Shown here in pieces: positions 35,767-63,563 of a stretch of DNA of 64,000 bases (positions are counted from its first letter, which is position 1; each line of letters starts with the position of its first letter). The notes below the pieces were generated by a model. That model worked only from the letters and a program-made list of their open reading frames with translations. It made no database searches and was not told the DNA's origin. A program made the position numbers and the translations under genes. The DNA comes from Athalassotoga saccharophila (GTDB lineage: Bacteria; Thermotogota; Thermotogae; Mesoaciditogales; Mesoaciditogaceae): contig NZ_AP019551.1 of NCBI RefSeq assembly GCF_009936215.1, positions 1,512,708-1,576,707 of the forward strand, read 5' to 3'.

Positions 35767-35961
35767 TTATTTCTTGTTGTTCCACTTGTCATCTTGTTTG
35801 CCTTGATCTGGAAGCACTAAAATTATTAGCAATCCAAGGAAACCAAGTATCAATCCAAGAAAAAAGGCGGCTCTTTCGTTTATGCCTTTGCTTTCGGCTA
35901 TGTTCATGCTTACAAGCCCCATCGCAAGGTTAAAAAAGAATAGTACAAAAATCCATATCAT
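35767..35961 (-). CDS. Small two-helix membrane protein
   Basis: A 64-residue protein with two hydrophobic helices (about 1-20 and 29-49, FFLGLILGFLGLLIILVLP) joined by SKGINERAA, and a charged tail. The start overlaps the darT stop (ATGA), so it is translated with darT. No family recognised with certainty; the topology resembles short phospholipase-D nuclease-N-like or holin-like membrane proteins. Confidence 0.55.
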   Translation of the reverse strand: MIWIFVLFFFNLAMGLVSMNIAESKGINERAAFFLGLILGFLGLLIILVLPDQGKQDDKWNNKK

Positions 35962-36590: not shown

Positions 36591-36619
36591 TTGTAGGTCA
36601 CCTCCTTTGGAATTATCTT

Positions 36620-36641
36620 TCAAATTCTTTAATCACACTTT
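36620..36641 (-). promoter_or_regulatory. AGTGTGATTA element, copy 3 (darT)
   Basis: Minus-strand AGTGTGATTA (36630-36639) followed by AAGAATTTGAAAG, between the darG terminator and darT. The 24-base context is identical to copy 1. Confidence 0.6.
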
Positions 36642-36656
36642 GAATGGAAAACAAAA

Positions 36657-36680
36657 AGCGATTCCCATAAGGGAATCGCT
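36657..36680 (-). terminator. Terminator after darG
   Basis: AGCGATTCCC and GGGAATCGCT form a perfect 10-bp stem with an ATAA-size loop, followed on the minus strand by TTTTTG. It separates darG from darT. Confidence 0.85.
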
Positions 36681-36696
36681 AATATGGATTTTGAAC

Positions 36697-47853: not shown

Positions 47854-48677
47854 TAAATCACTTCCCTATCAAACATTCTGCCATAACCAACAGTCGTTTT
47901 AGATCCTATTCCATTTTCCTTCAATGCTTTCTGAATGTTTTTTAGAACATAATTTATTACAGTATCATCTGAGTGTACCTTCGTTTTAAATTCTTCAATT
48001 TTTGCATCGCCTTTAATTGCTACCATGAAATAAAATTGTGTGTTATTATCTATTGTAAGGAAGAAAACGGGAATAGGATTATAATAATCAACTGGAAATT
48101 TATTATTTTCTATATAGTAAGGTTGATAGTGAGGATTCAATATATCAACTTTCAATCTTGGTTTTGTAGAGGGGTAGGCATCAAAAAAAATCATTTTCCC
48201 TTCTGTTGCTTTTTTATAAAACGAATTCTCTGGAGATCCGAAAATGTAGCAAAACAATTCATCTTTTAAAGCTTCTTCCTCGGATTTATCAAATATTTCA
48301 TTTATTATGTAACTTCTAACAACACCTTTTATTGATTGTCCCGGAATATAAGGAAATCCAAACACATGATGCAGTGTCATTCCCGTCTCATACACAGATT
48401 CATTTCCAAGGCCAATTACCATTTTACCTTTAATTACGAATTGTTTAGCGATAACTTTATAGTTCCTATTCTTAAAATCATTTTGAATTTCTAAAAGCCT
48501 TTTATTCAAAACATTTAAAATTTCTTCGTTAAAATCGAATTTTATGTTACTAACAGAGAAGTTCTCGTAGTATTCTGGATATTTATTTAATTTCAAACTA
48601 AAATTATCTATTTGTTCTTTTTCTATTTTCTTATTAAATATAAGTGCCATTATATCCTGTGGCAAATATTCGCTCAT
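47853..48677 (-). CDS. cmr6: Cmr6 (module B)
   Basis: A 274-residue paralogue of the module-A Cmr6. Shared blocks are FGFPYIPGQSIKGVVRSYII (about 110-129, PGxSxKG motif), EGKMIFFDAYPS and the terminal GIGSKTTVGYGRMF loop. It is much more AT-rich and Lys/Asn/Ile-rich than its module-A counterpart. It overlaps cmr5B and CARF-A by one base each. Confidence 0.92.
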   Translation of the reverse strand: MSEYLPQDIMALIFNKKIEKEQIDNFSLKLNKYPEYYENFSVSNIKFDFNEEILNVLNKRLLEIQNDFKNRNYKVIAKQFVIKGKMVIGLGNESVYETGMTLHHVFGFPYIPGQSIKGVVRSYIINEIFDKSEEEALKDELFCYIFGSPENSFYKKATEGKMIFFDAYPSTKPRLKVDILNPHYQPYYIENNKFPVDYYNPIPVFFLTIDNNTQFYFMVAIKGDAKIEEFKTKVHSDDTVINYVLKNIQKALKENGIGSKTTVGYGRMFDREVI

Positions 48678-49069
48678 TAATTTTCATCTCCTTCTATCAT
48701 ACTCTCGACAAATCTTTTCATCCACGTTAGTAATGCTATTACTTCATTTGTAATTATTCGATATTCATAGGAATTTTTTCTAATTATTTCACTTATCAAA
48801 TTTTCATTAATAAGTTTTTTGTATATTAGCCATTGTTCAATCTGAACATAAATTTTATTATAAGCAGATTCTTCTCTTTTAGATTCTCCTATTTTAGAAT
48901 TTATAAAAGCCATGGTCGGTCCTAACCCATTTACTTTTATAAGCATCGGAATCTTTTTTACGTATGATTTGTATTTTTTTTGTTCGTCTGGTTTCAAAAT
49001 TTGCTTTGCTTCAAAAACAAAATCATAAGCTTTACTCGCTCTTCCATCTTCTAAAGTCATATCAATCAC
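48677..49069 (-). CDS. cmr5: Cmr5 (module B)
   Basis: A 130-residue helical small subunit. KYKSYVKKIPMLIKVNGLGPTMAF (read as two parts, about 37-60) contains the family N-G-L; RIITNEVIALLTWMKRFVES is the terminal helix. It overlaps cmr4B by four bases and cmr6B by one base. Confidence 0.87.
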   Translation of the reverse strand: MIDMTLEDGRASKAYDFVFEAKQILKPDEQKKYKSYVKKIPMLIKVNGLGPTMAFINSKIGESKREESAYNKIYVQIEQWLIYKKLINENLISEIIRKNSYEYRIITNEVIALLTWMKRFVESMIEGDEN

Positions 49070-50022
49070 CCCAATGTGAGTTTTACTATACCTTTTCCTA
49101 TTGTCGAATTAGCACCTATTTGTAACCTTTTAGGGAAATTGTCGACAAAATATTTTTGAACTAATTTATCGGCAATTACTTCATTTGTTTTCACATTTTC
49201 ATCAAAGAAAAAGGATTTTTGAAATTCATCAATTAAAACAGGAGAGAAAAGAGCCATTGAGTACAACACAGTTTCAGAAGGTAAATATTCTTCGTTGAAT
49301 AATGCTGTACTACTTACCGTTCCAGTTAAATTGTCTATTTTTGTTCTTGTAATTACTTCCGTTGAATTAATGACAAAATCTTTGAAATCATCGTCATTCA
49401 ATACAACCAAATTTGTTTTTAATTTCGACTTTAAAAATGGTTCTTTTTGATCTTTAAAAATCATTTCTGATAATTGTTGAGATAAATCATTATATTTTTG
49501 ATCTTTTTTTACTTCAAAGGCAAATTCTTCTAAGACAACTTTATTATTGTCTATTACTACTTGTGAATTTAACGGAACCCCCTGCTCTGATGGTATTAGG
49601 AGATTATTAGAATAATTCATCATTTCTAAATCTTCTTTAAATCTATTTAAAACTCTCGGGCATGTTATCCATGCGAAGACACCTTTAATGGATTTGACTG
49701 GAAAGAGAAGAATTTTAGCATCAGCAAAACCTATTGCGCTGGCAAAATGTTCTTTATCTTTGAAATTTTCTTTAATAACTTCACTTTCATCTGATGGATC
49801 ATACCCAAATGCGATATGAATTTTTCTTTTTTCATCTTCAGCTTTTGCTCTTTCTTCAAACGCTTCTCTTATACATCCTTTTAAACTCGATCCTTCTATC
49901 TTTGGAAAGTCAGTATGTCTTTCTCTTTGAATAGGAAGATCAATAATTCCAAGATCGCTACCACTTCCAACATGTAAAGGCGTTTCCACATAAATGAAAA
50001 TAGGTTTTGCACTCTTAAACAT
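49066..50022 (-). CDS. cmr4: Cmr4 (module B)
   Basis: A 318-residue RAMP backbone nuclease. VETPLHVGSGSDLGIIDLPI (about 13-32) includes the catalytic Asp; SSLKGCIREAFEE and the terminal GANSTIGKGIVKL follow. Some insertions make it longer than the module-A protein. The ATG used is eight bases after AGGGG; GTG and ATG codons three residues earlier overlap that site. Confidence 0.92.
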   Translation of the reverse strand: MFKSAKPIFIYVETPLHVGSGSDLGIIDLPIQRERHTDFPKIEGSSLKGCIREAFEERAKAEDEKRKIHIAFGYDPSDESEVIKENFKDKEHFASAIGFADAKILLFPVKSIKGVFAWITCPRVLNRFKEDLEMMNYSNNLLIPSEQGVPLNSQVVIDNNKVVLEEFAFEVKKDQKYNDLSQQLSEMIFKDQKEPFLKSKLKTNLVVLNDDDFKDFVINSTEVITRTKIDNLTGTVSSTALFNEEYLPSETVLYSMALFSPVLIDEFQKSFFFDENVKTNEVIADKLVQKYFVDNFPKRLQIGANSTIGKGIVKLTLG

Positions 50023-50034
50023 TTTCATCACCCC

Positions 50035-51144
50035 TTAAATTTTTGATTTATTGATAACTCGTATTTTAGAATTTTTGATAATACTTTCACGGTCTATATA
50101 TGTGCCACCAGAATCTAAATATTTTTGTTCTTCTATTTCCTTGTTAAAAACTTTATATATGTATATGTTATCTTCGATCTCAAAATAAAATATTCTATTA
50201 TTGTTATTTCCATCATCATAAACTATATGTTTACCTTTGCCCTTAATTTCTTTTTTTGATTTTCTTATTTCAGATTTATAGAATTTCTCTTCGAGTATTC
50301 TTTTGATATCTGGCATTTTATTTATGTCATTCCATACCTCGTCAGGACAATAAAAAAAGAATTTTTCGAATTTATATTTATCCCAAAATATCTTCCCCAT
50401 TGGATTTAAATCACATATATCACCTGCATCTTCTATTAACGATGATGCATCTTGCAGAAATTGGCGATTCAGCAGATCTTTTTTACGAGTGGGAAATTGT
50501 TCTAACTTTAGAAATTCACTCTGATATTTTTCAAATATTTCATTATTTATTTTTAATGGAGCTTGAGGTATTTTTATCAATTCTTCTGTTTCTTCAAATT
50601 TGTAATAGATTGGTATTTCATTTATCTGGGCCAATATAGTTAAAAATGGGATTAAACCTTTATACCCTCCAGTAAGATTGAAAACCATATCACCGAAATA
50701 TTGAAATTCTTTATAAAACCAATTTAAAATATTTGGAATTCCTTCTTTTTCGAAGGCTTTTCTATCCTCTACTTGAAGTCCTTTTATGACTTGATTTTTA
50801 TCATTAAAAATCACGTTTATTTTAGGTTTATGATCATAACTTTCGAACCATTTTAAAATTATTTCGCTTGCTATCTTTGAAGTTATCGTATATGTTGATA
50901 TTAAATAAACTTCAAGATCTTCTTTTAAATCTTCTGAGATCTTTATAATGCTAGTTATCTCAGCACTTGCATCTTTTTTCCCCTGTGCCCATTTTAATAT
51001 GTTATTTTCTAAAACCTTCAGTTCTTCTTCCATATTTTCCCATTTATCAATTGAAAGTTTTAACATTTGTAAGTTGGTATTTCCATTATTTTTTCTATAA
51101 TTTTCAATTATAGACGCTCCAACTGTTGAAATGACATTCTTCAT
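50035..51144 (-). CDS. CARF-domain ancillary protein B
   Basis: A 369-residue relative of CARF protein A. The CARF domain (about 1-200) has NVISTVGASIIENYRKN (3-19), MVFNLTGGYKGLIPFLTI (about 151-168) and IPIYYKFEETEELIKIP (about 175-191). The C-terminal portion (FYFEIEDNIYIYKVFNKE near 315) again looks like a small alpha/beta domain that may be RelE-like. It sits inside the cmr operon between cmr3B and cmr4B, so each module has one CARF partner. Ring-nuclease activity is an alternative role. Confidence 0.72.
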   Translation of the reverse strand: MKNVISTVGASIIENYRKNNGNTNLQMLKLSIDKWENMEEELKVLENNILKWAQGKKDASAEITSIIKISEDLKEDLEVYLISTYTITSKIASEIILKWFESYDHKPKINVIFNDKNQVIKGLQVEDRKAFEKEGIPNILNWFYKEFQYFGDMVFNLTGGYKGLIPFLTILAQINEIPIYYKFEETEELIKIPQAPLKINNEIFEKYQSEFLKLEQFPTRKKDLLNRQFLQDASSLIEDAGDICDLNPMGKIFWDKYKFEKFFFYCPDEVWNDINKMPDIKRILEEKFYKSEIRKSKKEIKGKGKHIVYDDGNNNNRIFYFEIEDNIYIYKVFNKEIEEQKYLDSGGTYIDRESIIKNSKIRVINKSKI

Positions 51145-51154
51145 TTTTATCACC

Positions 51155-52192
51155 TCAGTAAAACAAAATTGTTATTCCAAATCCCTCGCTTGAAAGTTCC
51201 TCAGAAATCGACTGATATTGAAAAGCAGATTTTATACTTTCAAAGTCTCCTTTCAATACCTCAAAATAATAAACACTACCAGCAGGGACAAACTTTTTCA
51301 TCATTTTTGGTTTATTTTTGGCAATATCATATCCTCCAGCCATTATCGGTTTGCCAACAACGGCTGTTATAAGTTTTAAATGTAGATTTTTATATTTTCC
51401 TTCAAAATTTTCATCGAGCCATGAAGGAATCCAACCTTTTTTGAAATAGGCAGGGGTCATAAGATATAGTCTTAAATAGTCTTTTAATTCAGATACTCTA
51501 AAAAGTTGTTGGATGCTACGTGGAATTTCTATTTCTTTATAGTAGGCGGCTTTTCCCTCTCCTCCTAATTTAAGAATTCCATTTGTAAGTTCTAATCCAT
51601 CGTAATCTACTAAAAATGATTTTAAAAGATTCGGTCTTACCATTCTTGCTTTATAGAGCCGGCCTTCTTCTTCATCTGTAGTTTTCAATTTGTTCCTTCC
51701 TATTCCTATATGAGTTTCATATTTTATTAAATTTTCTGCTTTAAATAGAGGGCTTTGAGTTACAATACTCGTAATATTAAAATACGAATTCTCAAGGCTT
51801 TCTACTTTTTTATTTACTGGACTTGTTAGTAACTTCGGCAATTTGAAATTTGAATAAAACCTATCAGGCTTTTTATCTAAAACTAATTTAAAAAGTTCAT
51901 TTGAATCGTTTTGATCTTTTGGTAAAACAAAGTCCAATGGAGTTTGCAAAAAGATACTTCCATCTTTATCCTTAAGAAAAACTCCCTTTATCTTTAAGCT
52001 TTTAGTTGGATCTTTGTCAGTATTTACAAATTTAAAACTTTCTGAATGTTCAGAGAAATAAGCTGTCCTGATGGCACCATAAATAGTAGATGGCATTGGT
52101 GGAAATATACTATTAGCCGTGGTTTCTTCACCCATCGTGTACTCTTTTGTATTTCTAAAAAACAGTGTATCAAGAGGTGTTATTTCAATCAT
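51155..52192 (-). CDS. cmr3: Cmr3 (module B), intact
   Basis: A 345-residue RAMP subunit that binds the crRNA 5-prime tag. ITPLDTLFFRNTKEYTMG (about 3-20) is the Cmr3 start, FPPMPSTIYGAIRTAYF (about 27-43) the next block, and GGYDIAKNKPKMMKKFVPAG (about 283-302) plus SSEGFGITILFY the C-terminal loop. The ATG overlaps cmr2B by eight bases; an upstream in-frame ATG (52225) lies inside cmr2B. Because the module-A copy is disrupted, this is the only complete Cmr3. Confidence 0.92.
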   Translation of the reverse strand: MIEITPLDTLFFRNTKEYTMGEETTANSIFPPMPSTIYGAIRTAYFSEHSESFKFVNTDKDPTKSLKIKGVFLKDKDGSIFLQTPLDFVLPKDQNDSNELFKLVLDKKPDRFYSNFKLPKLLTSPVNKKVESLENSYFNITSIVTQSPLFKAENLIKYETHIGIGRNKLKTTDEEEGRLYKARMVRPNLLKSFLVDYDGLELTNGILKLGGEGKAAYYKEIEIPRSIQQLFRVSELKDYLRLYLMTPAYFKKGWIPSWLDENFEGKYKNLHLKLITAVVGKPIMAGGYDIAKNKPKMMKKFVPAGSVYYFEVLKGDFESIKSAFQYQSISEELSSEGFGITILFY

Positions 52193-53873
52193 TTTCAATC
52201 TGCCTCCTAACAAAATCAAGCACATTTAAAATATCAAACAACTCTTCTTTGTTTTTGGTTTGCGAGCAATTGTATAACTCGTAAATACTTTGAACTAATT
52301 TGTCTATTTCTTTTTTCTTTCTTATGTTAAATTCTTCGTCTGTTTCGTGATTTAGCTTTTCCATCATACAAGAACGTTTAACAAGTCTTTCTATTTCACT
52401 TTCAATCATAAGTTGTTCGTTATTTTCATTATCTAAATTTTTAAATTCCATTTGAATTGTTTTTATAAAATTATTGGAAAAATTTGAGGAAGATAGTTCA
52501 AATAAAATGTTATTGAGATAATCTATCATCCATTTATTTTTATCGTTTTTCCATTTGAATCTTGTTTTTAATATCTCACCGGATCCCTTTATTACGGCAA
52601 TGGCTATAGAATCTTTACCAGGATTTTCTTTGGCATAATGTTCCATTTCTCTTGCCCAATTTAAGGAATCATAGAGAGGATCTTTGTAATGTGCAATAGA
52701 TATTCCAGCCGAGAATGTTATGAATTTATCTAATTCAAAATCATTCTTCAATTGATTATTAACTATTTCATCAAAAGCTTTTCTAAGATCTTTTAATGCG
52801 TCAAATATATAGTTGATATTTACAAATCCCAGAAAGTCTTCTCCCCCTGCATAAACTATTTTTCCATATTTGTCATCTATTATTTCTTTAGTTTTTTCGG
52901 CAAATCGTCCAAGAGATTTGGACAATGATTTGTGAAATTCCATCAATTTTTGATTGTCTTTGAGATTTTCTCCTGAAAGTTGCTTACCCATTGAATCACC
53001 ATCAAAGGTTATGATTCCATAGTACTTCGAAAGTTTTAATTTTCTTTCTTTGAATATTTCTTCGTTTTGGAATTTTATATTATCTAAATTAGGAATTAAA
53101 TTCCCAATTCCATTATTTTTAAAGTATCTATCGTTCAAATTTTCTTCGTAAAGTAACTCCGGGTCATATCGTGGCCCAAATACATTCTTGAATTTTATGT
53201 ATTTTTCATCATCTTTCAATTCTTGTATAACATTGTATAAAGCTATTTCTGCCACCGAAGGAAAAGAACTTTCAGAATATTTTCTCTTAGTAAAGCAAAC
53301 TTCGCAAAGAACTTCTCCTTCAGAGAAAGTAAAATCATTTTCTATTCTTACTGCGTCGGGGGTCAAATTTTTTATCACCTTTGAATTGTTGTAAAATTTT
53401 CCAATACGTTCACCACAAACAGAGCATTTTCTAAAACTTGTATCTTCCATTACTTGATTAAAAGTTCTTACATTTTTAACTGAGCCTAATAAAGATTCAA
53501 TTTCACTGAAATTCTTTATGTAATCATTGTATGGAATTGAAACCCAGTGTATGTCAAGAAAATCATAAAAATTAGAAGGATTTTTTATGTGTGTTTTTTG
53601 ATTTATAATTGAAACAAATTTATTTCTAACTTTCTTTTCAAGTGCTTCCCCAAAAAGTTGCGGATCATCAACTGTTATTTTTGCTAAAAATCTATTTGGG
53701 AGAGATTTCATATCTTTATCTGGGAAAATAACTTCTATTTTATCACCGTTGATAGCAAAAGATATTAAATCAGATAATAGAGTACTCCCTCCAAACAAAT
53801 CTCTCGCTTTTCTCGCCTGCGATATAAAAGATTGGACAGGTCCTATTGTAAATAAGAAGAGATATTCGTTCAC
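52185..53873 (-). CDS. cmr2: Cas10/Cmr2 (module B), HD-less with GGED palm
   Basis: A 562-residue short Cas10. It begins at FTIGPVQSFISQARKARDLF (residues 8-27), the point where the Palm region starts in normal Cmr2, so the N-terminal HD nuclease domain is absent. A Cys4 zinc site is present: CSVCGERIG (about 154-162) and EVLCEVCFTKRK (about 190-201). The Palm motif is IVYAGGEDFLGFVNI (about 337-351), GGED instead of GGDD; the acidic pair remains, so nucleotide cyclisation may persist. It lacks DNase but may make signal molecules. The GTG start overlaps cmr1B (GTGA). Confidence 0.9.
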   Translation of the reverse strand: MNEYLFLFTIGPVQSFISQARKARDLFGGSTLLSDLISFAINGDKIEVIFPDKDMKSLPNRFLAKITVDDPQLFGEALEKKVRNKFVSIINQKTHIKNPSNFYDFLDIHWVSIPYNDYIKNFSEIESLLGSVKNVRTFNQVMEDTSFRKCSVCGERIGKFYNNSKVIKNLTPDAVRIENDFTFSEGEVLCEVCFTKRKYSESSFPSVAEIALYNVIQELKDDEKYIKFKNVFGPRYDPELLYEENLNDRYFKNNGIGNLIPNLDNIKFQNEEIFKERKLKLSKYYGIITFDGDSMGKQLSGENLKDNQKLMEFHKSLSKSLGRFAEKTKEIIDDKYGKIVYAGGEDFLGFVNINYIFDALKDLRKAFDEIVNNQLKNDFELDKFITFSAGISIAHYKDPLYDSLNWAREMEHYAKENPGKDSIAIAVIKGSGEILKTRFKWKNDKNKWMIDYLNNILFELSSSNFSNNFIKTIQMEFKNLDNENNEQLMIESEIERLVKRSCMMEKLNHETDEEFNIRKKKEIDKLVQSIYELYNCSQTKNKEELFDILNVLDFVRRQIEND

Positions 53874-54744
53874 TTTATACCACTTCCTTTTTTTATTAAT
53901 TCATTCTTGAAATTTTCTAATTTCTCTTGTTTTACTTCAACGCAACTTGGAGGAGCAGAATGAAGCGTAGTTACAACAGATGAAAATTTGTCATCGCTTG
54001 TCTGTAAAATTGAAACATAGATTGGAGATGCAAATCTACAATAATTATTGCCGTTGATGCGAATAAATGAATGTTTATGGGATGCTTCATCTATAATTCT
54101 TCTAACATCTTCTGCATTATCATTAAAAGATTGACCAATTTCAACTGTTTCTATCCAAGGATACTCAAGTTTTGATTTTTTTAAAACCTTTATTTTTTTA
54201 TTTTCCTCATCTATTTCATAATTAGATGAAATATTTTTAATAACCTTAAAAATATCTTTTAAGTCTATTCCCTGATTTCCTAATTCTTCATTATTTATTT
54301 TTTCTACTTTGAATGACCCATTCCCCTTCTTGCTCTTCTTCCAAGTCCACCTAAATAAGATACAAGTAGGAATAAATTTTTGATGAATTCTTGATTTATT
54401 CTTTTTTTATCATTTATGTAAAAAACAACCTTAAATTGTTGCTTTATTAAACCATTCAATTTAAACGACTTATGAGGTAACAGAGTATATTCTTGATTTT
54501 GTACATTTTCTTTGTTTTCAATAACGATCGAAAAACTACTCTTTTTAGGGTTATCATCAACGCCACCAAACAAATTTTTTTCTTTTTCTTTCATTTCATT
54601 AATTTCAAGATCACTGTTAATCGCTCTCCACCAGAATCGCATCGCTGCCTTAATGGATGTTTCTCTCAATTCAGGAACTTTTTTATCCACCCCAAAAAGA
54701 AACATTGGAGTTATTATCTTACATTCAAAGGTTATACTTTCCAA
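53870..54744 (-). CDS. cmr1: Cmr1 (module B), interrupted by a frameshift
   Basis: The first 146 codons give a Cmr1 start (CKIITPMFLFGVDKKVPELR, IKAAMRFWWRAINS) and reach the glycine/arginine loop LGGLGRRARRGMGHSK before a stop at 54304. The expected continuation lies in the other frame: GNGSFKVEKINNEELG and on through SFIRINGNNYCRFASPIYVS to HSAPPSCVEVKQEKLENF, ending at 53870 exactly in a GTGA overlap with cmr2B. One extra G in the GGGG run (54323-54326, minus strand) would read RARRGNGSF, the normal loop. Total length would be about 291 residues. Start is TTG after AGGGGG. It may be a mutation, a sequencing error or slippage. Confidence 0.85.
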
Positions 54745-54759
54745 ATTAATTACCCCCTT

Positions 54760-54782
54760 TCAAATTCATTAATCACACTTTA
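54760..54782 (-). promoter_or_regulatory. AGTGTGATTA element, copy 5 (cmr1B)
   Basis: Minus-strand AGTGTGATTA (54770-54779) immediately after the CYTH-CARF-HD stop codon, followed by ATGAATTTGAAAGGGGG, whose end is the cmr1B ribosome-binding site. No terminator precedes it. Confidence 0.6.
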
Positions 54783-57341
54783 TGACTCTATTGCCAAATT
54801 TTTCAGTTTTTCATTGGCAAGTTGAAGGCCAGAACTTTTAAATTCATTATTTATATCTTTTTTTATATCTTTTACTATATCTTCTACTTTCTCTTCTGGC
54901 ACTTTCTTTTCAGGATATACTTTGATGTAAAGCGTTTCTTCTTTTGGATTGTAAAATTCTGGCATTATACTTTTTACAGCCTGATGCTTTTCGAAATGCT
55001 GAAATTGTCTTGATTTGAAGGCTATTCTGTCGGCCTTTTTTATGTATTCATCTATGAATATCACTTTTTTATCCGCGACATTTTCGAGATTCGATCTTAT
55101 TTCTTTGTATACAATATCTTCTATTTCACAAGCAACATTGTCTAAAGCCTTCCAATCTTGCGCGTCAAGATATTCGAGCGTTTTTAATATTTTTTCGGTC
55201 ATATCCAATTTGGAAAGCATCGAATTATTTGCAAGAAAGTCATAGCACAAACTTTCTATTTCGTCTTTTGTTCTTTGAACTCTTATTTGAGTGTATTCAT
55301 CCATGACGGTTCTGTCTGACTGGACATCTGTCGAGTCTATGAATTTAAGCCATCTTGCCGCAAGCATTATCATCTTTTTCCATTCTTTGGAATTTTTAAA
55401 CAATTCGTCTTCATTCAATCTTGCCTCGAGAGATTTTATCTTTATCTTGAGATTATCTATGAAACCTTTGCGAGAAGGATTTTCATTTTCGCCTATAGGA
55501 AGGTACTGTCTGTGGTATTTGCTTACGTACATTATGGCCTTCTTAAGTCTTGCGATTTTTTCTTTATCTTCATCTATTTTTTCTATTCCATCCAAAAGAT
55601 TCTCATTCTCTATCAACTGATAACTCAATTCACTGTGCAAATCTCTCACAACGCTCGGAAGACCATCAATGCTAAATTCAATTCCATTATCCGTTGTGTA
55701 ATTAAGAACTGTATGGCCTAAATCATGAATGTTCATCGCCACGGCAAGAATGAAATAGAATTCTTTTCTAAGATCGGGATTAACTCCGTTCAAGAAATTT
55801 TCTTCTCCCATAATTCTTACAAGGTTGAATCCGAATTCCATTAGTCTTTTGCTGTGTCTTTGAGAATGTTCGACCGTTTCGGGAATAAGATCTCCTATCC
55901 ATCTCAAACTCCAGATCGGAATTTTTTCATTAACAAAGTTTATCATCTTGTCGTCTCTTATAAGATCTATGAAATTTTTCCCGTGACCGAATGGTAATTT
56001 GCGGGCATTATCGTAATTCGCTTTTATCTCGTTCAATATTGGAACAGTTATAAGTTGTCCTTCTGGAGAAATGGAAAAAAGTTCCTTTAAAAACTCTGGC
56101 AAAATCACAAAAATATTGTAATTTATAATTTCTCCATTTTGGACCTTTGAAGATATTAAATCGAAATATGGGCTGTAATCGTCAATGGTCTCATTGTTCC
56201 ATCCAATAGGGAGAGGGGGGAATTTTAACTGAACCATTTTCTGTTCACTGATACCATCTGTTATCTCATTTTTCTGCTTGTAATAAAATGCTTTTTTGTT
56301 AAAAAGGCTGTAAATGGCAAGTTCTATCCCCGGGTATTTCTGCCCCCCTGTTAAGTCGATTAACGTATTTCGACCATCTTTATTATCATCTGCAACTTTT
56401 GAAATAACGTCAAATATTTCACGAAGAGATTTGTAAGCAGAATCTTGACTTGAAGAATCATAATTTATCGGTGAATAAGAGCATTCTAACCCAAATATTC
56501 TATTTACCGCCTCTTTAAGAAGAGTATAATCATGAGGATAGTCTTTACCTTTTTCAAAAGATGGAAAGACAAGAAAATGCACTTTTTCCACTTCAAAACC
56601 GCTTTTTATGAAAAGGTACAAGGCATCTATTTCTCCGATAAATTCTCTGTATTTGTTCGATTTGGTTAATTCTTCTAAACGTACATTAAAATTTTTATCT
56701 TTTCCCGCCCCTTGTCCTTGGGTCATAATGACCGTCACAGGACCTATGAGTCTATTTTGGACATATTCGATAATCTTAAGAGGTTTTATTTCTCGCTTTT
56801 TAGCCTTATAAAAGTTTTGATACGATTTTTCTTTTGTCAAATCCTTAACGTCTGTGATCTCAAGTCCGATGCCTTTTAATTCATTCTCGAAATATGAATC
56901 GTCTTTATCTTCTTTGGTTTCGATTTCAAGGTAATACAATCCCGGATCATCATTTTTTAGTATATCCTTGTTGTCTATTTCCAAAAATTCGTCAAGAAAT
57001 ATTTCCGGATTTTCTTTGATTATGTATCTTATCTTTACAACGTTTTTCTTTTTTTCTAAATCAGATAGATTTATATCTTTTCGTGGATCCAGAAAATCTT
57101 TTGTTTCGAATCTTTTTTCTGGATTATCTGTGAGTGTTTTGGTTGCTTTTTCCCAGACATGTGTATGGCCTATCACTTCGTCGTAAGAAATAGTTAGCCT
57201 TATACGCTTTTGAGGGTTTTCTGTCTCTTCGTACCATTGAATTATTCCGATCTTTTTAATGCTGTTGTGCTTCAAACGCTCGATCTTTTCGCGATCTTCG
57301 AGAAGATATTTTCTTTCAATTTCTTTAGTTTCTTCGGTCAT
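54780..57341 (-). CDS. CYTH-CARF-HD multidomain signalling protein
   Basis: An 853-residue protein with three domains in an unusual order. Residues 1-185 form a CYTH (triphosphate tunnel) domain: EIERK (7-11) is the ExExK signature, KRIRLT and KIRYII supply basic strands and LYYLEIETKE (136-144) a late acidic strand. Residues 195-375 look like a CARF domain: VTVIMTQGQGAGKD, VHFLVFPSFEKG and the ligand loop LIDLTGGQKYPG (327-338). Residues 485-700 hold an HD phosphohydrolase: EHSQRHSKRL (491), NIHDLGHTVLN (537-547) and DLHSELSYQL (567). CYTH enzymes hydrolyse or cyclise triphosphates, CARF binds cyclic oligoadenylate and HD cleaves phosphodiesters, so the protein may sense, degrade or make nucleotide signals. 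The start follows GGAGGT; an element AGTGTGATTA is upstream. Confidence 0.72.
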   Translation of the reverse strand: MTEETKEIERKYLLEDREKIERLKHNSIKKIGIIQWYEETENPQKRIRLTISYDEVIGHTHVWEKATKTLTDNPEKRFETKDFLDPRKDINLSDLEKKKNVVKIRYIIKENPEIFLDEFLEIDNKDILKNDDPGLYYLEIETKEDKDDSYFENELKGIGLEITDVKDLTKEKSYQNFYKAKKREIKPLKIIEYVQNRLIGPVTVIMTQGQGAGKDKNFNVRLEELTKSNKYREFIGEIDALYLFIKSGFEVEKVHFLVFPSFEKGKDYPHDYTLLKEAVNRIFGLECSYSPINYDSSSQDSAYKSLREIFDVISKVADDNKDGRNTLIDLTGGQKYPGIELAIYSLFNKKAFYYKQKNEITDGISEQKMVQLKFPPLPIGWNNETIDDYSPYFDLISSKVQNGEIINYNIFVILPEFLKELFSISPEGQLITVPILNEIKANYDNARKLPFGHGKNFIDLIRDDKMINFVNEKIPIWSLRWIGDLIPETVEHSQRHSKRLMEFGFNLVRIMGEENFLNGVNPDLRKEFYFILAVAMNIHDLGHTVLNYTTDNGIEFSIDGLPSVVRDLHSELSYQLIENENLLDGIEKIDEDKEKIARLKKAIMYVSKYHRQYLPIGENENPSRKGFIDNLKIKIKSLEARLNEDELFKNSKEWKKMIMLAARWLKFIDSTDVQSDRTVMDEYTQIRVQRTKDEIESLCYDFLANNSMLSKLDMTEKILKTLEYLDAQDWKALDNVACEIEDIVYKEIRSNLENVADKKVIFIDEYIKKADRIAFKSRQFQHFEKHQAVKSIMPEFYNPKEETLYIKVYPEKKVPEEKVEDIVKDIKKDINNEFKSSGLQLANEKLKNLAIES

Positions 57342-57360
57342 TCTCCACCTCCGACTTAAT

Positions 57361-57383
57361 TTCAAATTTTATAATCACACTAT
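57361..57383 (-). promoter_or_regulatory. AGTGTGATTA element, copy 6 (CYTH-CARF-HD)
   Basis: Minus-strand AGTGTGATTA (57372-57381) contains the stop codon of the AAA+ gene (GTG TGA) and is followed by TAAAATTTGAAATT, 30 bases before the CYTH-CARF-HD start. Confidence 0.6.
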
Positions 57384-58757
57384 TTCAAAATCTTTCTCAA
57401 GTATGCAATCACGACCGTCTATGTATGCGTTCATTATTGCCTCTTTGACAAGACTTTCGAGTTCTCTGAAATTTCCAGGATAGTCGTACCTTTCAAGTTT
57501 TTCTATCGCCTTTAAACTTATCCTTTTGATCTCTTTTTCTTTTTGGAGAGAAGTTAACTGATCCTGAAGGACAAAACTCAGAATATATCTGAAATCACTT
57601 TTTCTCTCTTTCAAAGACGGTATTCTAATAGAATAATCAAATCTCTCAAACAGGTCTCTTCTGAAATTTCCGGTTTCTATCTCTTTTTTGATATCTTTAT
57701 TCGTTGCCGCTATGATCATCACGGGCACCTTTAACCCCCGAGGATCGGAATATCCATCTATCGTTACTTTCATATCATCTAAATACGTTAAAAGTTTTGC
57801 CTGAATCTTTTCACTTATTTCACCTATTTCATCCAAAAAAATAACTCCGCCCGTGTTTGAAAGAAATTTCCCCATCTTGTAAAGGCTTCCGGTAAAGGAT
57901 CCCGGAAAGGTTCCGAAGAGTTCAGAATCGACTATTGTTTCGGAAATGTTGACAAGGGTAACTTTTGCAAAGTGATCTTCAAAGTCATTTTCTAAGAATT
58001 TGCGCGCTATGTATTTTGCAAAGAGTGTTTTTCCGCTGCCGGTAGGTCCGGTTATCAATATGGAAGGCAATTTCCCAATTGAAAGTTCTTTCGATTTATT
58101 GTTTATTTCTCCAAAAATTTTTTGAACTTTGCTTAGTTCTTGAGTGTTGGAGTTTTCTAATTTTTTTAATTCATCTATTGCGCTCTTAACATCTTTCCTG
58201 AATTTTTGAAATTGTTTTGCCGTAGATTTTAATGACTCAACGATTCTGTTGGCTTTAAAGATGACAGAGCGCATATTTTCATCTGAGAACATGGATATGA
58301 ATTTTTCTTTAGAATAATTGGAAAGATCTATTTTCCAGTTTACCGGCTTGGACATTTCCGACTCTAAAAATCGAGTGCTTAATTTATCACGGACAAGTCT
58401 TTTTAGAACGTCTTCGAATCTTGCCATCTCAGAATACTCTTTTCTTTCACCGTAAAATCTTTTAACATCGAAGATGGCGTAAACGTAAGATCTTTGCTGG
58501 GCATTAACGACTGCCCTTTCATTCAATTCACCATCGACAAGATATATCTTGTTCATGATCTTATCTTTCTCATCATTTGATTCTTTTACGATAACTATGT
58601 CATTTTTATCGAACTTGGATGGAAATTCATCCACAGGGCAAAATTCAACTTTACCTTCTATATCCGGCTTGTTTTTCAAAATGACATTTATTAGTTCTTC
58701 TACAGGCTTGTCATCTTCACAATCGCATTTAACGTAAAAAATCTTAATCTTGTCCAT
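57375..58757 (-). CDS. Sigma54-activator-type AAA+ ATPase without a DNA-binding domain
   Basis: A 460-residue protein. Residues 1-225 are an unrecognised regulatory part with a possible alpha/beta start (KIKIFYVKCDCED) and a coiled-coil-like stretch (170-225). Residues 228-440 are a complete bacterial enhancer-binding-protein ATPase: Walker A GPTGSGKT (236-243), ELFGTFPGSFTGS (279-291, matching ELFGxxxGAFTGA), Walker B VIFLDEIGE (305-313), AATNKD (350-355), FRRDLFERFD (365-374, Arg fingers) and YPGNFRELE (426-434). The chain ends at 460 with no Fis-type helix-turn-helix. The GAFTGA loop normally contacts sigma54; here the neighbour is an atypical RNA polymerase, so promoter opening for that enzyme is a plausible role. 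RtcR-like proteins are the closest known analogy. Confidence 0.8.
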   Translation of the reverse strand: MDKIKIFYVKCDCEDDKPVEELINVILKNKPDIEGKVEFCPVDEFPSKFDKNDIVIVKESNDEKDKIMNKIYLVDGELNERAVVNAQQRSYVYAIFDVKRFYGERKEYSEMARFEDVLKRLVRDKLSTRFLESEMSKPVNWKIDLSNYSKEKFISMFSDENMRSVIFKANRIVESLKSTAKQFQKFRKDVKSAIDELKKLENSNTQELSKVQKIFGEINNKSKELSIGKLPSILITGPTGSGKTLFAKYIARKFLENDFEDHFAKVTLVNISETIVDSELFGTFPGSFTGSLYKMGKFLSNTGGVIFLDEIGEISEKIQAKLLTYLDDMKVTIDGYSDPRGLKVPVMIIAATNKDIKKEIETGNFRRDLFERFDYSIRIPSLKERKSDFRYILSFVLQDQLTSLQKEKEIKRISLKAIEKLERYDYPGNFRELESLVKEAIMNAYIDGRDCILEKDFEIV

Positions 58758-59598
58758 TTTTACCACCTAAATGTTTGAGTATATTTTTGAACTCATCATT
58801 TTTATTTAAATTCTCAAAAAAAGTGTCTTCGGTAAATGTTTTTTCTTCTGATGATCTTAGAATTTCATTCAAAATTTCCAGCACAGAATTTGTCTTTCTA
58901 AGGCAATCTCCGTTTAAAGATTTGGAGTCTAATTTTATGAAATCATCTTTGAGTTTTTGAGATTTACCTATACCGATTCTAAAAAGCGTCATTGCGAGAG
59001 TCTTGACATTTGGCTTACCGTTGAAGGTCAGGGCAGAGATTTTGACATCGACACCGTCCCAGAATCTCATGTAATAACTGAGAAAGTGTCTGTTGGTTTT
59101 GTTTTTAATATCGGTAGAATTTTCATTCACCTTCAAAAGCATCTCGGATTTGAACCGTTCGTAAAAATCTTCTCTGCGCGGATTTTCAAAGTCGTAAAAT
59201 CCATTTGCGTAACTTTCTATCACCGACGCGGCTTTCGAAAAGTTCTCAAAACTGTTGTGTTTGAAGTAAGATGTTTCTTTATCATTACCATAACCTTTAA
59301 AGCCATAATGGATAACCCTGAATTTTTCACCCTTTAAAATTAAAAGGACTGTTTTTATCTTTGGAGGATATTTGGGAAGTTCCAAATTCAAAATATCAAG
59401 ATTTAGAGATGTATCTTTTTGACTTTGATCGTCATTTTCATCTTCTGTGTATATCTCTTCATCTTCATTTTCATCGTAATCGAGTAAATCTTCTTTTGAA
59501 AGCGATGACTCGATAGGTGAAGATTTTTTTAGATCTTTCCTTGAGAATTTGTTTTTTTCTTTTTCTTTTTGCGTTTGCCTAATTTTATTCTTTTCCAT
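58744..59598 (-). CDS. Unknown acidic protein encoded between polymerase and ATPase
   Basis: A 284-residue protein with no family I can name. Residues 1-30 are Lys-rich (EKNKIRQTQKEKEKNKFSRK), residues 35-70 strongly acidic (DYDENEDEEIYTEDENDDQ) and likely disordered. From about 75 there is a folded part with KTVLLILKGEKFRVIHYG, FLSYYMRFWDGVDVKISALT (about 160) and helices to the end, in two lobes. It overlaps the polymerase end by 14 bases and the ATPase start by 14 bases, so the three genes are translationally coupled. The context suggests a subunit, initiation factor or anti-factor of the polymerase. The ATG is chosen because GGAGG lies nine bases upstream. Confidence 0.6.
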   Translation of the reverse strand: MEKNKIRQTQKEKEKNKFSRKDLKKSSPIESSLSKEDLLDYDENEDEEIYTEDENDDQSQKDTSLNLDILNLELPKYPPKIKTVLLILKGEKFRVIHYGFKGYGNDKETSYFKHNSFENFSKAASVIESYANGFYDFENPRREDFYERFKSEMLLKVNENSTDIKNKTNRHFLSYYMRFWDGVDVKISALTFNGKPNVKTLAMTLFRIGIGKSQKLKDDFIKLDSKSLNGDCLRKTNSVLEILNEILRSSEEKTFTEDTFFENLNKNDEFKNILKHLGGKNGQD

Positions 59599-62500
59599 CC
59601 AAGATCGCCTCCACTTCGTCTGGCAAAAGTGCATAAATGGACTTTGGAGATCTCTCCTCTATCCGATCGATCTTTTCAAACGCTTTTGCTATATTGCTTT
59701 TCTTTATGCCGTTTTCTTTCTTTCCAGGAGGATTTTCGAAACTCAAAGCAGAGAAGAAACCATAGTTTTTAAGATCTGTGAGATACTTTTTCATCTGGCC
59801 TTCTGTTTCTATTTTGTTATTCTTCATGTACATAAACAATATTTCAAGGTAGATGGATGATACGTCTATCGTCTTTAAAAGCCATTCTTTCTTGTCTGAG
59901 TCTTTGCCGGTCATCAACTTTATCAAATCTTCATTTGCGAGATTTACAAGGTAATCAACAAAACTTTTCTCCATTCTTCTGAAAAATCTGCTCGATACCG
60001 CAGACATTTTGAAATCCGACTTACTTGTCTGGAAGGTCTTCATTGACAGTTGAGTGCCACGTTCTCCTATCGTGTGTCCCGATATCACGCCTATGAAGTC
60101 TCCGATTCTAAAACTTTCATCTGAAGTGGAAGGATTTATGCCGCAGCACTTTTCGCAGGGACCATTTTCTGACTTGCATGTTACAGGGCTTCTGAGTATA
60201 AAACCATCTGTTGCTTTTTCTTTCATTTCTTTTAAATTGTCAAAGTTAACAAGTACCCACTCTTCATCTTCTTTGAATTTTATGTATCTTCCATTTATAA
60301 TTCTTTCTATATCGTACTTCCCGACTAATTTTTCGATATCTGTTTTTGTGAATTCTATCCCTTCATTCGTTCCACAATCGTGGGAAGAGATTCTGAGAGG
60401 ATATAAGAATTCGACCATCTTTCTTGTGAAATATCCCGCTTCGGCGACGTGCAATTTTTTGTCAAGCATTGACTTCCTTCCTCGTACGGCAAGACAACTG
60501 TCAAAATTCTCGAGACCATTTCCTATGTAAAATTCGAGAGGAATTCCATTAGAGAAATTTCCTATGTTTTGATCTCCTATCTTTATCTCTTTGTAAATGG
60601 ACTGGAAATTTTCGGCCTTTCCTCTTGCCTTCGATTCCTCGATCTTTTTGATGTCCCCCATTCCACCTTTAGCCTCGAAGAATGACACGCTTAAATTTTG
60701 GGATGTTGCAATTTCAAGCATTTCTTTTTGTATGTCGAGAAGTTTCTCTGGCACATCTTTGTGGGATAATATTATCTCTTTTATCTTTTCGGAAAGGTTG
60801 GAATTTTTATCTTTCAAATAATTTCCATAGGTCATATCCTGTGAGATCGAAATTGAAAAATCTCTGTTTCCAATCTTGAAAAGATGATTCGAAGGTGTCA
60901 TCTTTTTCATCGTTGATCTGATCTTCTCGTTCTGATCGGAAGGATAATACACGGCCATCGTATCCCCGTCAAAATCGGCTCCGAATCCTTCGCACACCAT
61001 TATTGGAAGACCTATGGCGTAATTTTCCCAGAAGATCGGATAAAAAGCCTGTATGCTATGAAGATGAAGGGAAGGCTGACGGTTTAGAAGTACCATAATT
61101 TCATTTAATTTGCAATAAGAATTGGCAATGTCAGCGAACTCTCTTCTTTTGATCATGTCCCCTTCAAGAATAGATCTTTCGTTTTCAAACTTAAGATTAA
61201 ACCATTCGAGGGCGAAATCAACGGGGAGATAAACGTGATCTACGTCTATATCCGTTGCAGGAACTATCGTTGCGCGACCGGAATAATGAATCCTTCTTCC
61301 GAGCATTGCCGTACGCGGGAATCCATCTTTTGATATCAAAAATTTTGCCTCTTTATAGGCCTTACCCTTTCTATCTTTTATCATATCCAAAATTTCTTCA
61401 TTTTTATCGTCCTTTAAGCCGTCTAATTTTTGAACAAAGAGTTTTCCGCCCTCCTTTAAAGGCCTTATCGTGAAATTGTGGTACTCATCCAAAAGTGTGT
61501 TGAAGGAGTTCAAGTATTTATAATATTCTTTCCATCGGGTAAGATTCGTTTTTGCAAAGAGTTGTATTACCGGTATCGCCTTATGATCGAATAAGGTCCA
61601 AAATTCCATCTCTCCTATTCTCTGGCCACCATTGTTTTTACGTCCCTTGTAGGGCTGAAATGTTATTTCTGAAATATGCTTTGTATGTCCGATGACGTGG
61701 AGTTTGTCCCTTACACAATGATCCAAGCGCACAAAATACTGGTATCCGACAATCGCGCTAAAGACAGTTTCCTTTCCGTTGACTTTGACATGCAGTGGAA
61801 ATTTTCCATTTTCATCGCCGCCAAGCGCTTTAAGTTGTGAGATCAATTTGTCAGGATCGACTTTAGAATCAACACTTCCATCTGTAAAGTTTACAAGCGT
61901 ACCATGGGTCTCTATCAACTGACCAAGATTCATTCTTGTAATTATTCCGAATGGACTGAGAATAAGATCGAGGATCTTTTTCTTCCCGTCTATCTCGACG
62001 TAGGGCATTTCTTCATCTTCGAGTATTCTCGAAATAGTTCCTTTGTTTCCATATCTACCAGTTATTTTGTCTCCAACCTCAAGTGGTTTTTCAACTTTTA
62101 CGGGTATTCTTATCGTCAAATGACTCATGGAAATCATTTCTTTTACAAGCGGAGGAGTTATATCTCCTATTTCAAAACAATCCTTTGTTATGTTCAAAGT
62201 ATATGTGTACCTTTGATCAAATAAAAAAGACCTTTTCAAATCTTTGTTTTCATTTCCATCAAAAAATACCCTTCTCCTAAGATAAAGATCGCCATACACA
62301 ACATTTTGAGTTTTGACGAATTCATAAACAATCTCAATAGATTTTCCGCTTTGAACTTTCGATTGTATGACAAACTTCTTTGTACTTCTGCCAGATTCAA
62401 TTATTTCATAATCGATTGGAAGCGGGACTTCATCTTCTATTTTCAGTTCTTCTCTCGATTCTATCTTCATCTTTTGAGAGAATGATTTTGAGGCGACTAT

Positions 62501-63448
62501 TCCATCCTCAAAATTAAGACCATCAAAGAGTGCATATCCGACAAAAGCATTTACTCCTAAATCGAAGCCAATTTGGTCTTCAATGCCAGTCTTAACGATG
62601 GGTTTTTCACTTCCAACGACTCTAATGGCCTGCTTTAAGTTTTTTCCTCCCATCATTGCCCTTGGCGTGTCATTGTAAGTTAAAAATGGAACGAGTAAAG
62701 TCGAATAACTGAAAAAATCATTAGAACTTTTGATATCTGAATCTATGGCCAATTTTTTAGCGTTGTACCTTGCGCCGAGAGACAAAAACAAAGAAAGGCC
62801 TATCTCTTCTGATTCAGGGCTTTCGAGTAGATCTATCTTCCCAAGATGTGATTTGTGTGGATATCTCATCGTGTCTGCAACAACGCTTCCATGGTACACT
62901 ACTTTTCTTGTGTTGGAAATCTTAAGCAATGGATTTGATTCGTCAAGTTCAAAAAGAGAGGGAATTCTTACAAACCGTTTTGATTCTGGATCTATTTTAT
63001 GAATCTTCGTTCCTATCTCTACCGTGCTTAAATTTGCCGAGATCATGTACTCAAAAAGTTCAGATTCATCTTTGAATTGAAGTGCACGATCGTAAGAACT
63101 CATTATCTGAATGGCCTTATCCAAAAAATATCCAGGAATCACGAAAAAATTCTTTAGATCCATGTTTTTTACCTGTTCTTTCAATTGTTCAGGTTTTTCG
63201 ATAAGCACAAATGGAGAATAATAATTCTTTCCCATCCATTTGTAAATTCCATCATTTGGAATCAGGCAAAGGAATTCGACCTCTAACGGATCGTAAATCC
63301 TTGAGTTGATTTGTAATTTGACGATTTTGTATAACTCATCCTTAATAAAAAAATTACTTGTAGAGATTATCTTTAGAGCGTCGTAGTTGAAAACTTTGGG
63401 CCTGTAATTAGAAATAAAAAAATTTAATCCATCGAATATTTCTTCCAT
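59585..63448 (-). CDS. Single-chain DNA-directed RNA polymerase: fused compact beta and beta-prime cores
   Basis: A 1287-residue protein containing, in order, the hallmark blocks of both large RNAP subunits. Beta part: HKSHLGKIDLLESPESEEIG (198-217), NDTPRAMMGGKNLKQA (259-274), FDGLNFEDGIVAS (308-320), GDKITGRYGNKGTISRI (459-475), PFGIITRMNLGQLIETHG (499-516), NNGGQRIGEMEFWTL (605-619). Beta-prime part: GRRIHYSGRATIV (717-729), LLNRQPSLHLHSIQAF (787-802), GADFDGDTMAVYYP (823-836, catalytic Asp triad), VRGRKSMLDKKLHVAEAGYF (988-1007), DCGTNEGI (1024-1031), then CKSENGPCEKC (1091-1101, zinc ligands with C1025) and GHTIGERGTQLSMKTFQT (1124-1141). It is less than half of normal beta plus beta-prime. 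Only about 100 residues separate GEMEFW from GRRIHYSGR, so the N-terminal zinc finger and sigma-binding clamp helices of beta-prime are missing. An ATT at 63469, eight bases after AGGAGG, could be the real start, adding seven residues. Confidence 0.93.
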   Translation of the reverse strand: MEEIFDGLNFFISNYRPKVFNYDALKIISTSNFFIKDELYKIVKLQINSRIYDPLEVEFLCLIPNDGIYKWMGKNYYSPFVLIEKPEQLKEQVKNMDLKNFFVIPGYFLDKAIQIMSSYDRALQFKDESELFEYMISANLSTVEIGTKIHKIDPESKRFVRIPSLFELDESNPLLKISNTRKVVYHGSVVADTMRYPHKSHLGKIDLLESPESEEIGLSLFLSLGARYNAKKLAIDSDIKSSNDFFSYSTLLVPFLTYNDTPRAMMGGKNLKQAIRVVGSEKPIVKTGIEDQIGFDLGVNAFVGYALFDGLNFEDGIVASKSFSQKMKIESREELKIEDEVPLPIDYEIIESGRSTKKFVIQSKVQSGKSIEIVYEFVKTQNVVYGDLYLRRRVFFDGNENKDLKRSFLFDQRYTYTLNITKDCFEIGDITPPLVKEMISMSHLTIRIPVKVEKPLEVGDKITGRYGNKGTISRILEDEEMPYVEIDGKKKILDLILSPFGIITRMNLGQLIETHGTLVNFTDGSVDSKVDPDKLISQLKALGGDENGKFPLHVKVNGKETVFSAIVGYQYFVRLDHCVRDKLHVIGHTKHISEITFQPYKGRKNNGGQRIGEMEFWTLFDHKAIPVIQLFAKTNLTRWKEYYKYLNSFNTLLDEYHNFTIRPLKEGGKLFVQKLDGLKDDKNEEILDMIKDRKGKAYKEAKFLISKDGFPRTAMLGRRIHYSGRATIVPATDIDVDHVYLPVDFALEWFNLKFENERSILEGDMIKRREFADIANSYCKLNEIMVLLNRQPSLHLHSIQAFYPIFWENYAIGLPIMVCEGFGADFDGDTMAVYYPSDQNEKIRSTMKKMTPSNHLFKIGNRDFSISISQDMTYGNYLKDKNSNLSEKIKEIILSHKDVPEKLLDIQKEMLEIATSQNLSVSFFEAKGGMGDIKKIEESKARGKAENFQSIYKEIKIGDQNIGNFSNGIPLEFYIGNGLENFDSCLAVRGRKSMLDKKLHVAEAGYFTRKMVEFLYPLRISSHDCGTNEGIEFTKTDIEKLVGKYDIERIINGRYIKFKEDEEWVLVNFDNLKEMKEKATDGFILRSPVTCKSENGPCEKCCGINPSTSDESFRIGDFIGVISGHTIGERGTQLSMKTFQTSKSDFKMSAVSSRFFRRMEKSFVDYLVNLANEDLIKLMTGKDSDKKEWLLKTIDVSSIYLEILFMYMKNNKIETEGQMKKYLTDLKNYGFFSALSFENPPGKKENGIKKSNIAKAFEKIDRIEERSPKSIYALLPDEVEAILDGKE

Positions 63449-63534
63449 GGAAAAATCAATTTCATTAATAGAAATCGCCTCCTATTTTTAAAATGAATTT
63501 TATTTATCTTTAAAAAAGAAGTTTACAGAACTAA

Positions 63535-63563
63535 ATTATAACATTTCTAAATCATAATTTAAA
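63535..63563 (-). promoter_or_regulatory. Sigma-A-like promoter of the polymerase operon
   Basis: On the minus strand TATAAT (63535-63540) with a weak TTTAAA (63558-63563) at 17-base spacing, 87 bases before the ATG. The AGTGTGATTA element is absent here, so the polymerase would be made by the house-keeping enzyme. The rest of 63470-63634 contains the 5-prime leader and the promoter of the divergent gene. Confidence 0.5.

Follow-up and report, generated by a model that had tools for sequence, protein, structure and literature searches.

Enhancer-binding-type ATPases (bEBPs) such as NtrC1, NtrX, PspF and NorR share with the ATPase described here an AAA+ core, an L1 loop insertion and arginine fingers. 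Group 5 bEBPs naturally lack a C-terminal HTH DNA-binding domain, and the bEBP relatives TyrR and VpsR work with the sigma-70 housekeeping polymerase and bind DNA. Beta and beta' are joined in one chain, as in the polymerase of this locus, in the full-length fused polymerases of the NCBIfam models PRK09603 and PRK14844, which presumably serve a housekeeping role. TyrR is termed a sigma-70 factor in a reference title within PMC4894688. The L1 loops of PspF pull the N terminus of sigma-54 according to the accessible text of PMC12054792, and engagement of both the initiation factor and promoter DNA by the bEBP L1 loop is described in the accessible parts of PMC12054792 and PMC7175178. RtcR, a CARF-bEBP, has a bEBP ATPase, a sensory N-terminal alpha/beta domain and a CARF context in common with the locus studied here (excerpts of PMC4012209). 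The polymerases of YonO and Thermus phage P23-45 are, like the one reported below, one-chain, reduced relatives of the multisubunit polymerase (excerpts of PMC5467207 and PMC10770324), and in the P23-45 enzymes a variable clamp is built in part from the connector that joins the barrels (excerpts of PMC10770324).

This work describes a locus of Athalassotoga saccharophila that lies in a stretch of 64,000 nucleotides (contig NZ_AP019551.1, positions 1,512,708 to 1,576,707), hereafter the window. To judge from their sequences, the products of three adjacent genes look like a separate transcription machine that consists of a one-piece RNA polymerase, a small charged partner and a ring-ATPase. With confidence that is about evenly balanced, and by a mechanism that we infer, we read the ATPase as the dedicated remodelling motor of a CRISPR-linked, sigma-54-independent machine of polymerase, partner and ATPase. 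No description of a CRISPR-linked single-chain polymerase with a bEBP-clade ATPase was found in open-licence full texts, a scope outside which subscription papers and bioRxiv preprints mostly fall.

The polymerase-partner-ATPase cassette

The cassette and its features, all on the minus strand, are:

63535-63563, minus strand: upstream of the polymerase gene, candidate sigma-70 promoter TTTAAA-17-TATAAT, its second hexamer preceded by TG
59585-63448, minus strand: single-chain fused beta-beta' RNA polymerase, 1287 aa, with Rpb2_6 and Rpb1_2 domains
58744-59598, minus strand: partner protein, 284 aa, ATG at 59598, with a basic N-terminal segment, an acidic segment and a poorly conserved core
57375-58757, minus strand: bEBP-clade AAA+ ATPase, 460 aa from the ATG at 58757
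58362-58757, minus strand: N-terminal alpha/beta domain of the ATPase, without known sequence relatives, of receiver-like topology in the AlphaFold model
58026-58049, minus strand: Walker A GPTGSGKT (residue 240)
57885-57902, minus strand: L1 loop GSFTGS (residues 289-294 of the 463-aa form)
57819-57845, minus strand: Walker B VIFLDEIGE

An overlap of 14 nt joins the polymerase gene to the partner gene, and another of 14 nt joins the partner gene to the ATPase gene, which bears out the translational linkage to the polymerase operon that was noted in the initial annotation. The ATPase frame also has a longer form of 463 aa (57375-58766, minus strand) from a GTG at 58766. The polymerase frame extends seven codons upstream of its first ATG (63449-63469) to an ATT at 63469, behind an AGGAGG; since relatives also have a reading frame there, translation of the polymerase may start at this ATT. 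Sigma-70 matches such as TTTAAA-17-TATAAT are no commoner here than in shuffled sequence.

The fused polymerase was found in 27 of 103 Thermotogota genomes (E ≤ 1e-60), and the 76 genomes without a match at this threshold make its distribution patchy, which counts against our best reading. Order and strand of polymerase, partner and ATPase are the same in all 23 checkable genomes (24 loci, G097 having two), a count made without G002, G054 and G075 (contig ends) and G059 (broken polymerase frame, partner not found). ATPase and polymerase distances are strongly correlated (Mantel r 0.92, 22 loci, p 0.0001), as are polymerase-partner and ATPase-partner distances (r 0.91 and r 0.89, 19 loci, p 0.0001 for ATPase-partner), a correlation that cannot separate joint vertical descent from joint transfer. 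In three close pairs, dN/dS is 0.10-0.34 for the three cassette genes. The 27 Thermotogota cassette-family copies are separated from other bEBPs in an unrooted AAA+ domain tree with a support of 0.998; the value of 0.426 on the rerooted tree is a rerooting artefact. By this comparison of sequences, polymerase, partner and ATPase are a conserved, co-inherited cassette, and the coupling of the ATPase to the fused polymerase that was first read from one locus is upheld by both gene order and correlated distances. A weak ATPase match (G041:C23, E 3.9e-4, locus L130) was left out, there being no cassette at that place.

In a Neomarinimicrobiota MAG in which no rpoN was detected (L073, 4860-12619), a fused polymerase is encoded together with two small ORFs and a bEBP ATPase. 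This ATPase carries KSGHDKA where GAFTGA would stand and ends in a tail of 162 residues. This arrangement occurs in one of the 245 genomes searched around L073, namely L073 itself, and was not counted as a family member, as the two small ORFs gave no match to the partner profile.

Both catalytic barrels of the polymerase lie in one chain with a DxDGD-type catalytic site, as defines a two-barrel single-chain polymerase. The catalytic ADFDGD is present in 24 of 24 aligned Thermotogota polymerases (aligned without G024, a near copy of G029, and without G041, G053 and G059), and the trigger-loop motif GE-GTQ in all 23 that reach that region. The family profile aligns to residues 464-1090 of the genome's own RpoB and 634-1346 of its own RpoC and to nothing else significantly; the separate housekeeping rpoB and rpoC are also encoded in this 2.04-Mb genome. 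A linker of about 64 residues replaces the first 633 RpoC residues in the window polymerase, and 20 residues are deleted at RpoB 838. We take the replaced RpoC segment to comprise the zinc ribbon, lid, rudder and the clamp helices docking sigma region 2, and the deletion presumably corresponds to the flap tip, the site of sigma region 4. The polymerase has no recognizable sequence counterpart of the sigma-docking flap tip or beta' clamp helices. Because the barrel connector of P23-45 contributes to a variable clamp, a small alternative clamp is possible in the fused polymerase. A viral or plasmid origin was considered and rejected, since no polymerase match reached 80% coverage of the query among the 54 phage and 66 plasmid records that matched. 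In 27 viral polymerase loci, there was no partner match, and the ATPase profile gave two weak matches.

The partner belongs to no Pfam or NCBIfam family and is weakly conserved. In the 22 copies listed, its start is K/R/Q-rich (8-16 K, R or Q within the first 35 residues) and is followed by an acidic stretch with a net charge of -10 to -21 over 40 residues. Its AlphaFold model has a pLDDT of 50 and was not used for fold inference, so the case for the partner as ATPase substrate is built on charge pattern and gene order. A tenth partner match (G075:C29, E 5e-4) lies opposite other reading frames with no polymerase or ATPase nearby and was therefore discarded as spurious.

The ATPase, its L1 loop and sigma-54

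The ATPase is assigned to the NtrC/PspF clade by Pfam Sigma54_activat (PF00158, E 2.2e-35), and its other motifs are intact (sensor I ATN, arginine fingers FRRDLFERF, sensor II YPGNFRELE), which confirms the full bEBP signature with GSFTGS. AAA_lid_14 (Pfam) spans residues 386-447, and the chain stops after this lid. Only 28 residues follow sensor II, compared with 87-124 in four canonical bEBPs of the same genome, and no C-terminal HTH DNA-binding domain was found in the window ATPase, in line with what had been read from the window. Across the polymerase-linked ATPases, 26-33 residues follow sensor II in 25 of 25 assessable copies, all without a DNA-binding domain; G032 was omitted, as a contig end cuts its ATPase after the loop.

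The N-terminal domain is present in 21 of the 103 Thermotogota genomes. In the AlphaFold model of the ATPase (mean pLDDT 80 for the whole protein and 57-83 per ten-residue block over residues 1-140), its beta-alpha order resembles a receiver, and a structure search aligned receiver-plus-AAA+ chains to the model over residues 7-463 with a large rmsd. Alignment columns E110, K119, R123, W141 and K142 are invariant, and E107, F114, S155 and D159 nearly so. There is no conserved phospho-acceptor Asp with companion residues at the ends of strands 1 or 3, and a profile comparison with two receivers of the same genome gave no match, nor could the domain be placed in a Pfam family. Provisionally, the modelled domain may be called pseudo-receiver-like. 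An RtcR-type CARF domain, with which the initial annotation proposed a comparison, found no support. Alignment with hhalign against a single E. coli RtcR gave no match (a weak test), no CARF or RtcR family is among the Pfam matches listed for 26 ATPase members, and the structure-match lists, which are filled by the AAA+ domain and so carry no weight here, name no CARF protein; CARF was detected in neighbouring genes of the locus and not in the ATPase. An eIF3_N match in one member only (E 1.9e-4) was taken as chance. Viral contigs held no relative of the ATPase N-terminus.

The L1 loop reads G[AS][FYW]T[GD][ASG] in 26 of 26 polymerase-linked Thermotogota ATPases; it is exactly GAFTGA in three of them and GSFTGS in the window copy only (1/26). 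Five canonical bEBPs of the same genome have GAFTGA (four) or GAYTGA (one). Since the relatives vary and three have GAFTGA itself, GSFTGS is not diagnostic of the family, and its use as an argument against a sigma-54 role is weakened when it stands alone. Because the loop is retained in all 26, a role in initiation is favoured.

An rpoN gene is encoded in the genome of the window (PF04552, E 9.2e-48) and in 21 of 28 genomes in total (27 with the polymerase, plus G010), which counts against the sigma-54-independent reading. It was not found in the other seven (G006, G007, G053, G054, G094, G095 and G097), where a second rpoN domain agrees; some of the genomes are drafts, but completeness is 99% for both G094 and G095, in 5-6 contigs. 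No PF00158 match in G094, G095 or G097 is strong apart from those of the cassette ATPases (106-119 bits); the others score 27-33 bits in reading frames of 500-830 aa. The pattern TGGCAC-N5-TTGCW has no match in the window (0.02 expected), as had been noted for a TGGCAC-N5-TTGC promoter from the outset. A relaxed sigma-54 pattern gives six two-mismatch matches in the window, a number reached by 3 of 100 shuffles, and none of them lies at the cassette start. The initial annotation had named a canonical rpoN with matching promoters as evidence against its reading: the gene is present, to the detriment of that reading, and the promoters were not found, to its benefit. Independence from sigma-54 is further supported by the lack of rpoN in 7 of 28 genomes, together with a polymerase in which the sigma docking elements find no counterpart.

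These data bear directly on the view that the ATPase is an ordinary sigma-54 activator, a group 5 bEBP that controls the CRISPR locus by way of the housekeeping sigma-54 polymerase. The rpoN gene of the window's genome and the exact GAFTGA of three of 26 relatives fit such an activator, but seven of 28 genomes keep the cassette without rpoN, no sigma-54 promoter lies near the cassette and the linked polymerase lacks sigma docking elements; we consider this view very improbable.

CRISPR context and proposed role

Three CRISPR arrays lie in the window, along with two sets of type III-B-like genes and a type I-B-like cas set, a label that we assume from its order cas8-cas7-cas5-cas3-cas4-cas1. 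The features closest to the argument are:

54780-57365, minus strand: CARF/HD-CE protein, immediately after the ATPase gene (distance 9 nt to its TTG start and 33 nt to its first ATG)
47853-54744, minus strand: type III-B cmr genes (Cmr1, Cas10/Cmr2, Cmr3, Cmr4, small-subunit candidate, Cmr6-like) and a further CARF-type protein, with the small subunit and Cmr6-like assigned by position alone
35221-35249, minus strand: CRISPR leader end, TTGACT-17-TATACT, the same for each of the three arrays
33694-35210, minus strand: CRISPR array of at least 23 repeats, leader at the high-coordinate end

The CARF/HD-CE protein has weak HD-CE and CARF matches below curated cut-offs, both of which are clear in the homologue at L142. 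Its EIERKYLL-like start, which is not scored by Pfam, we take to recall CYTH/triphosphate tunnel enzymes. The operon of the first type III-B module may be interrupted by a transposase-like ORF (40539-42185, named by eye) that separates its Cmr4-like gene from its Cmr3-like gene.

Of the 28 cassette loci, 22 have an array, a cas homologue or a CARF homologue in their vicinity, compared with one of 20 rpoN control loci (Fisher 2.6e-7). The 28 loci comprise 27 scripted ones and the window by its own annotation, to the exclusion of L130 and L147, which have no polymerase, and of L134, a 4.3-kb contig with part of the G054 polymerase; of the control loci, 19 come from polymerase-bearing genomes and the other from G010. 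The cas queries were taken from the window and two cassette loci. The proximity of L034 and L139 rests on CARF or CARF/HD proteins alone, and L133, which holds the locus supplying one Cas6 query, matches two other Cas6 queries too. At L128, L129, L131, L142, L143, L139 and in the window, the cassette is adjoined or overlapped by a co-directional CARF or CARF/HD gene. The polymerase gene overlaps with a CARF gene (PF09651; E 1.5e-31 in L128) at L128, L129 and L131 and with a CARF/HD-CE gene at L142 and L143; a CARF/HD-CE gene comes after the ATPase at L139 and in the window. Cas6 follows the ATPase in L029, L031, L032, L033, L133 and L135, and CRISPR arrays come directly after it in L131, L132 and L141. 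The overlaps of CARF and polymerase genes, found in several genomes, suggest that the cassette is linked to type III systems by signalling. Superfamily 1-type helicases adjoin the cassette or its CARF gene at L128 (11948-14503) and L028 (6804-9440).

The cassette could also be a CRISPR-independent defence-island module, producing for instance interfering transcripts from phage templates, that clusters with cas genes via shared islands. Six of the 28 loci have neither cas gene nor array, of which four are on contigs below 10 kb and two (L136 and L138) on stretches of 14-19 kb, and DarT, macro-domain or NADAR genes recur nearby, but the overlap of CARF genes with the polymerase gene in several genomes speaks against such a module, to which we assign a low probability. 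The DarT (PF14487), macro-domain or NADAR-DarT1 genes lie near the cassette or cas genes in the window (35958-37485) and in L127, L031, L032 and L132; those of L031 and L032 were named by eye and used as queries.

As TTGACT-17-TATACT stands at the end of each of the three leaders, the arrays have a housekeeping promoter at their disposal. The fused polymerase may still transcribe the arrays; the sigma-70-like promoters on both leaders and cassette count against our best reading. The three leaders also share a perfect 11-bp inverted repeat (ATCGTCGTCGA ... TCGACGACGAT) at 35330-35379, 23646-23695 and 9801-9850, about 80 bp upstream of this promoter, which is possibly a regulator site.

One ATPase of the family has lost the L1 loop. 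In G010, from the window's own genus (locus L147, 8487-13047), the loop is deleted, no polymerase or partner was detected in the genome, and the ATPase adjoins and overlaps an HD-CE gene; in the AAA+ domain tree it is nested within the cassette ATPase family. Its position beside an HD-CE protein without polymerase implies that the ATPase may have a second client, and the loss of the loop, a single case, ties the loop to polymerase and partner and not to the HD-CE protein. It is conceivable, if quite unlikely, that the main client of the ATPase is the CARF/HD-CE protein or some other defence effector, with the polymerase as a separate effector in the same operon. In favour of this view, the ATPase adjoins the CARF/HD-CE gene at L139 and in the window and overlaps an HD-CE gene in G010, without polymerase; most cassettes, however, have partner and polymerase upstream and no HD-CE gene adjoining the ATPase, and it is in G010 that the loop was lost.

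On the remodelling-motor reading that we prefer, the ATPase probably pulls on the partner, by analogy with the action of PspF on the sigma-54 N terminus. The L1 loops of a putative ATPase hexamer would take hold of a flexible segment, for which the partner's charged N-terminal tail is the likeliest candidate; this tail could be held as the N terminus of sigma-54 is held by L1 loops. What is remodelled during initiation may also be the polymerase. ATP hydrolysis would then allow the polymerase to load on or open its DNA. The pseudo-receiver-like N-terminal domain or the CARF proteins of the locus may act as the gate, such that the machine would run while type III CRISPR signalling is on.

Alternatively, the ATPase could be a chaperone or recycling factor that removes stalled fused polymerase from DNA or assembles the polymerase. 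The missing DNA-binding domain in 25 of 25 assessable copies suits this role, and the tight co-inheritance with the polymerase fits any direct partner. We regard it as unlikely, given that the kept L1 loop is the element that in bEBPs engages initiation factor and promoter DNA (accessible parts of PMC12054792 and PMC7175178). By falling weight, the alternatives to the remodelling motor are chaperoning or recycling, action on the HD-CE protein, CRISPR-independent defence and sigma-54 activation.

Should a bEBP-clade ATPase indeed work with a polymerase without sigma docking elements, ATP-driven activation would not be tied to sigma-54, and three genes of one operon would offer a minimal system for how such ATPases melt DNA. 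If the polymerase is dedicated to CRISPR loci, it would add a new layer to adaptive immunity. A bolder version, tentative and in our view rather doubtful, is that Thermotogota CRISPR immunity has its own sigma-free holoenzyme, with a one-chain polymerase, a stand-in factor for sigma-54, a ring ATPase as opener and a cyclic-oligoadenylate switch, that would keep defence transcription going when a phage shuts down or hijacks the host polymerase.

Comparison with known systems

The AlphaFold model of the ATPase matches NtrC1 (1ny5) with a Z of 22.7 over residues 7-463 (355 aligned), the rmsd of 22.5 stemming from domain placement. Unlike NtrC1, NtrX, PspF and NorR, the cassette ATPase has no C-terminal DNA-binding domain, a relaxed GAFTGA and its own polymerase, and it occurs without rpoN in 7 of 28 genomes. 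It differs from RtcR in that it has no detectable N-terminal relation to the E. coli protein, no HTH and no adjoining rtcBA, and in that CARF is found here in separate proteins of the locus.

YonO and the P23-45 polymerases are phage-encoded, unlike the cassette polymerase, and YonO has no detectable trigger loop, whereas the cassette polymerases keep the trigger-loop motif. No bEBP-type ATPase partner is described for the phage enzymes in the accessible text of PMC5467207 and PMC10770324, and none that is convincing was found in the 27 viral loci. The full-length fused polymerases of PRK09603 and PRK14844 have models of about 2800-2900 positions, compared with 1287 aa for the cassette polymerase, which is encoded beside separate, normal rpoB and rpoC. 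TyrR and VpsR, unlike the cassette ATPase, bind DNA and use the housekeeping polymerase; what they share with the cassette ATPase as read here is a bEBP core that is used without sigma-54.
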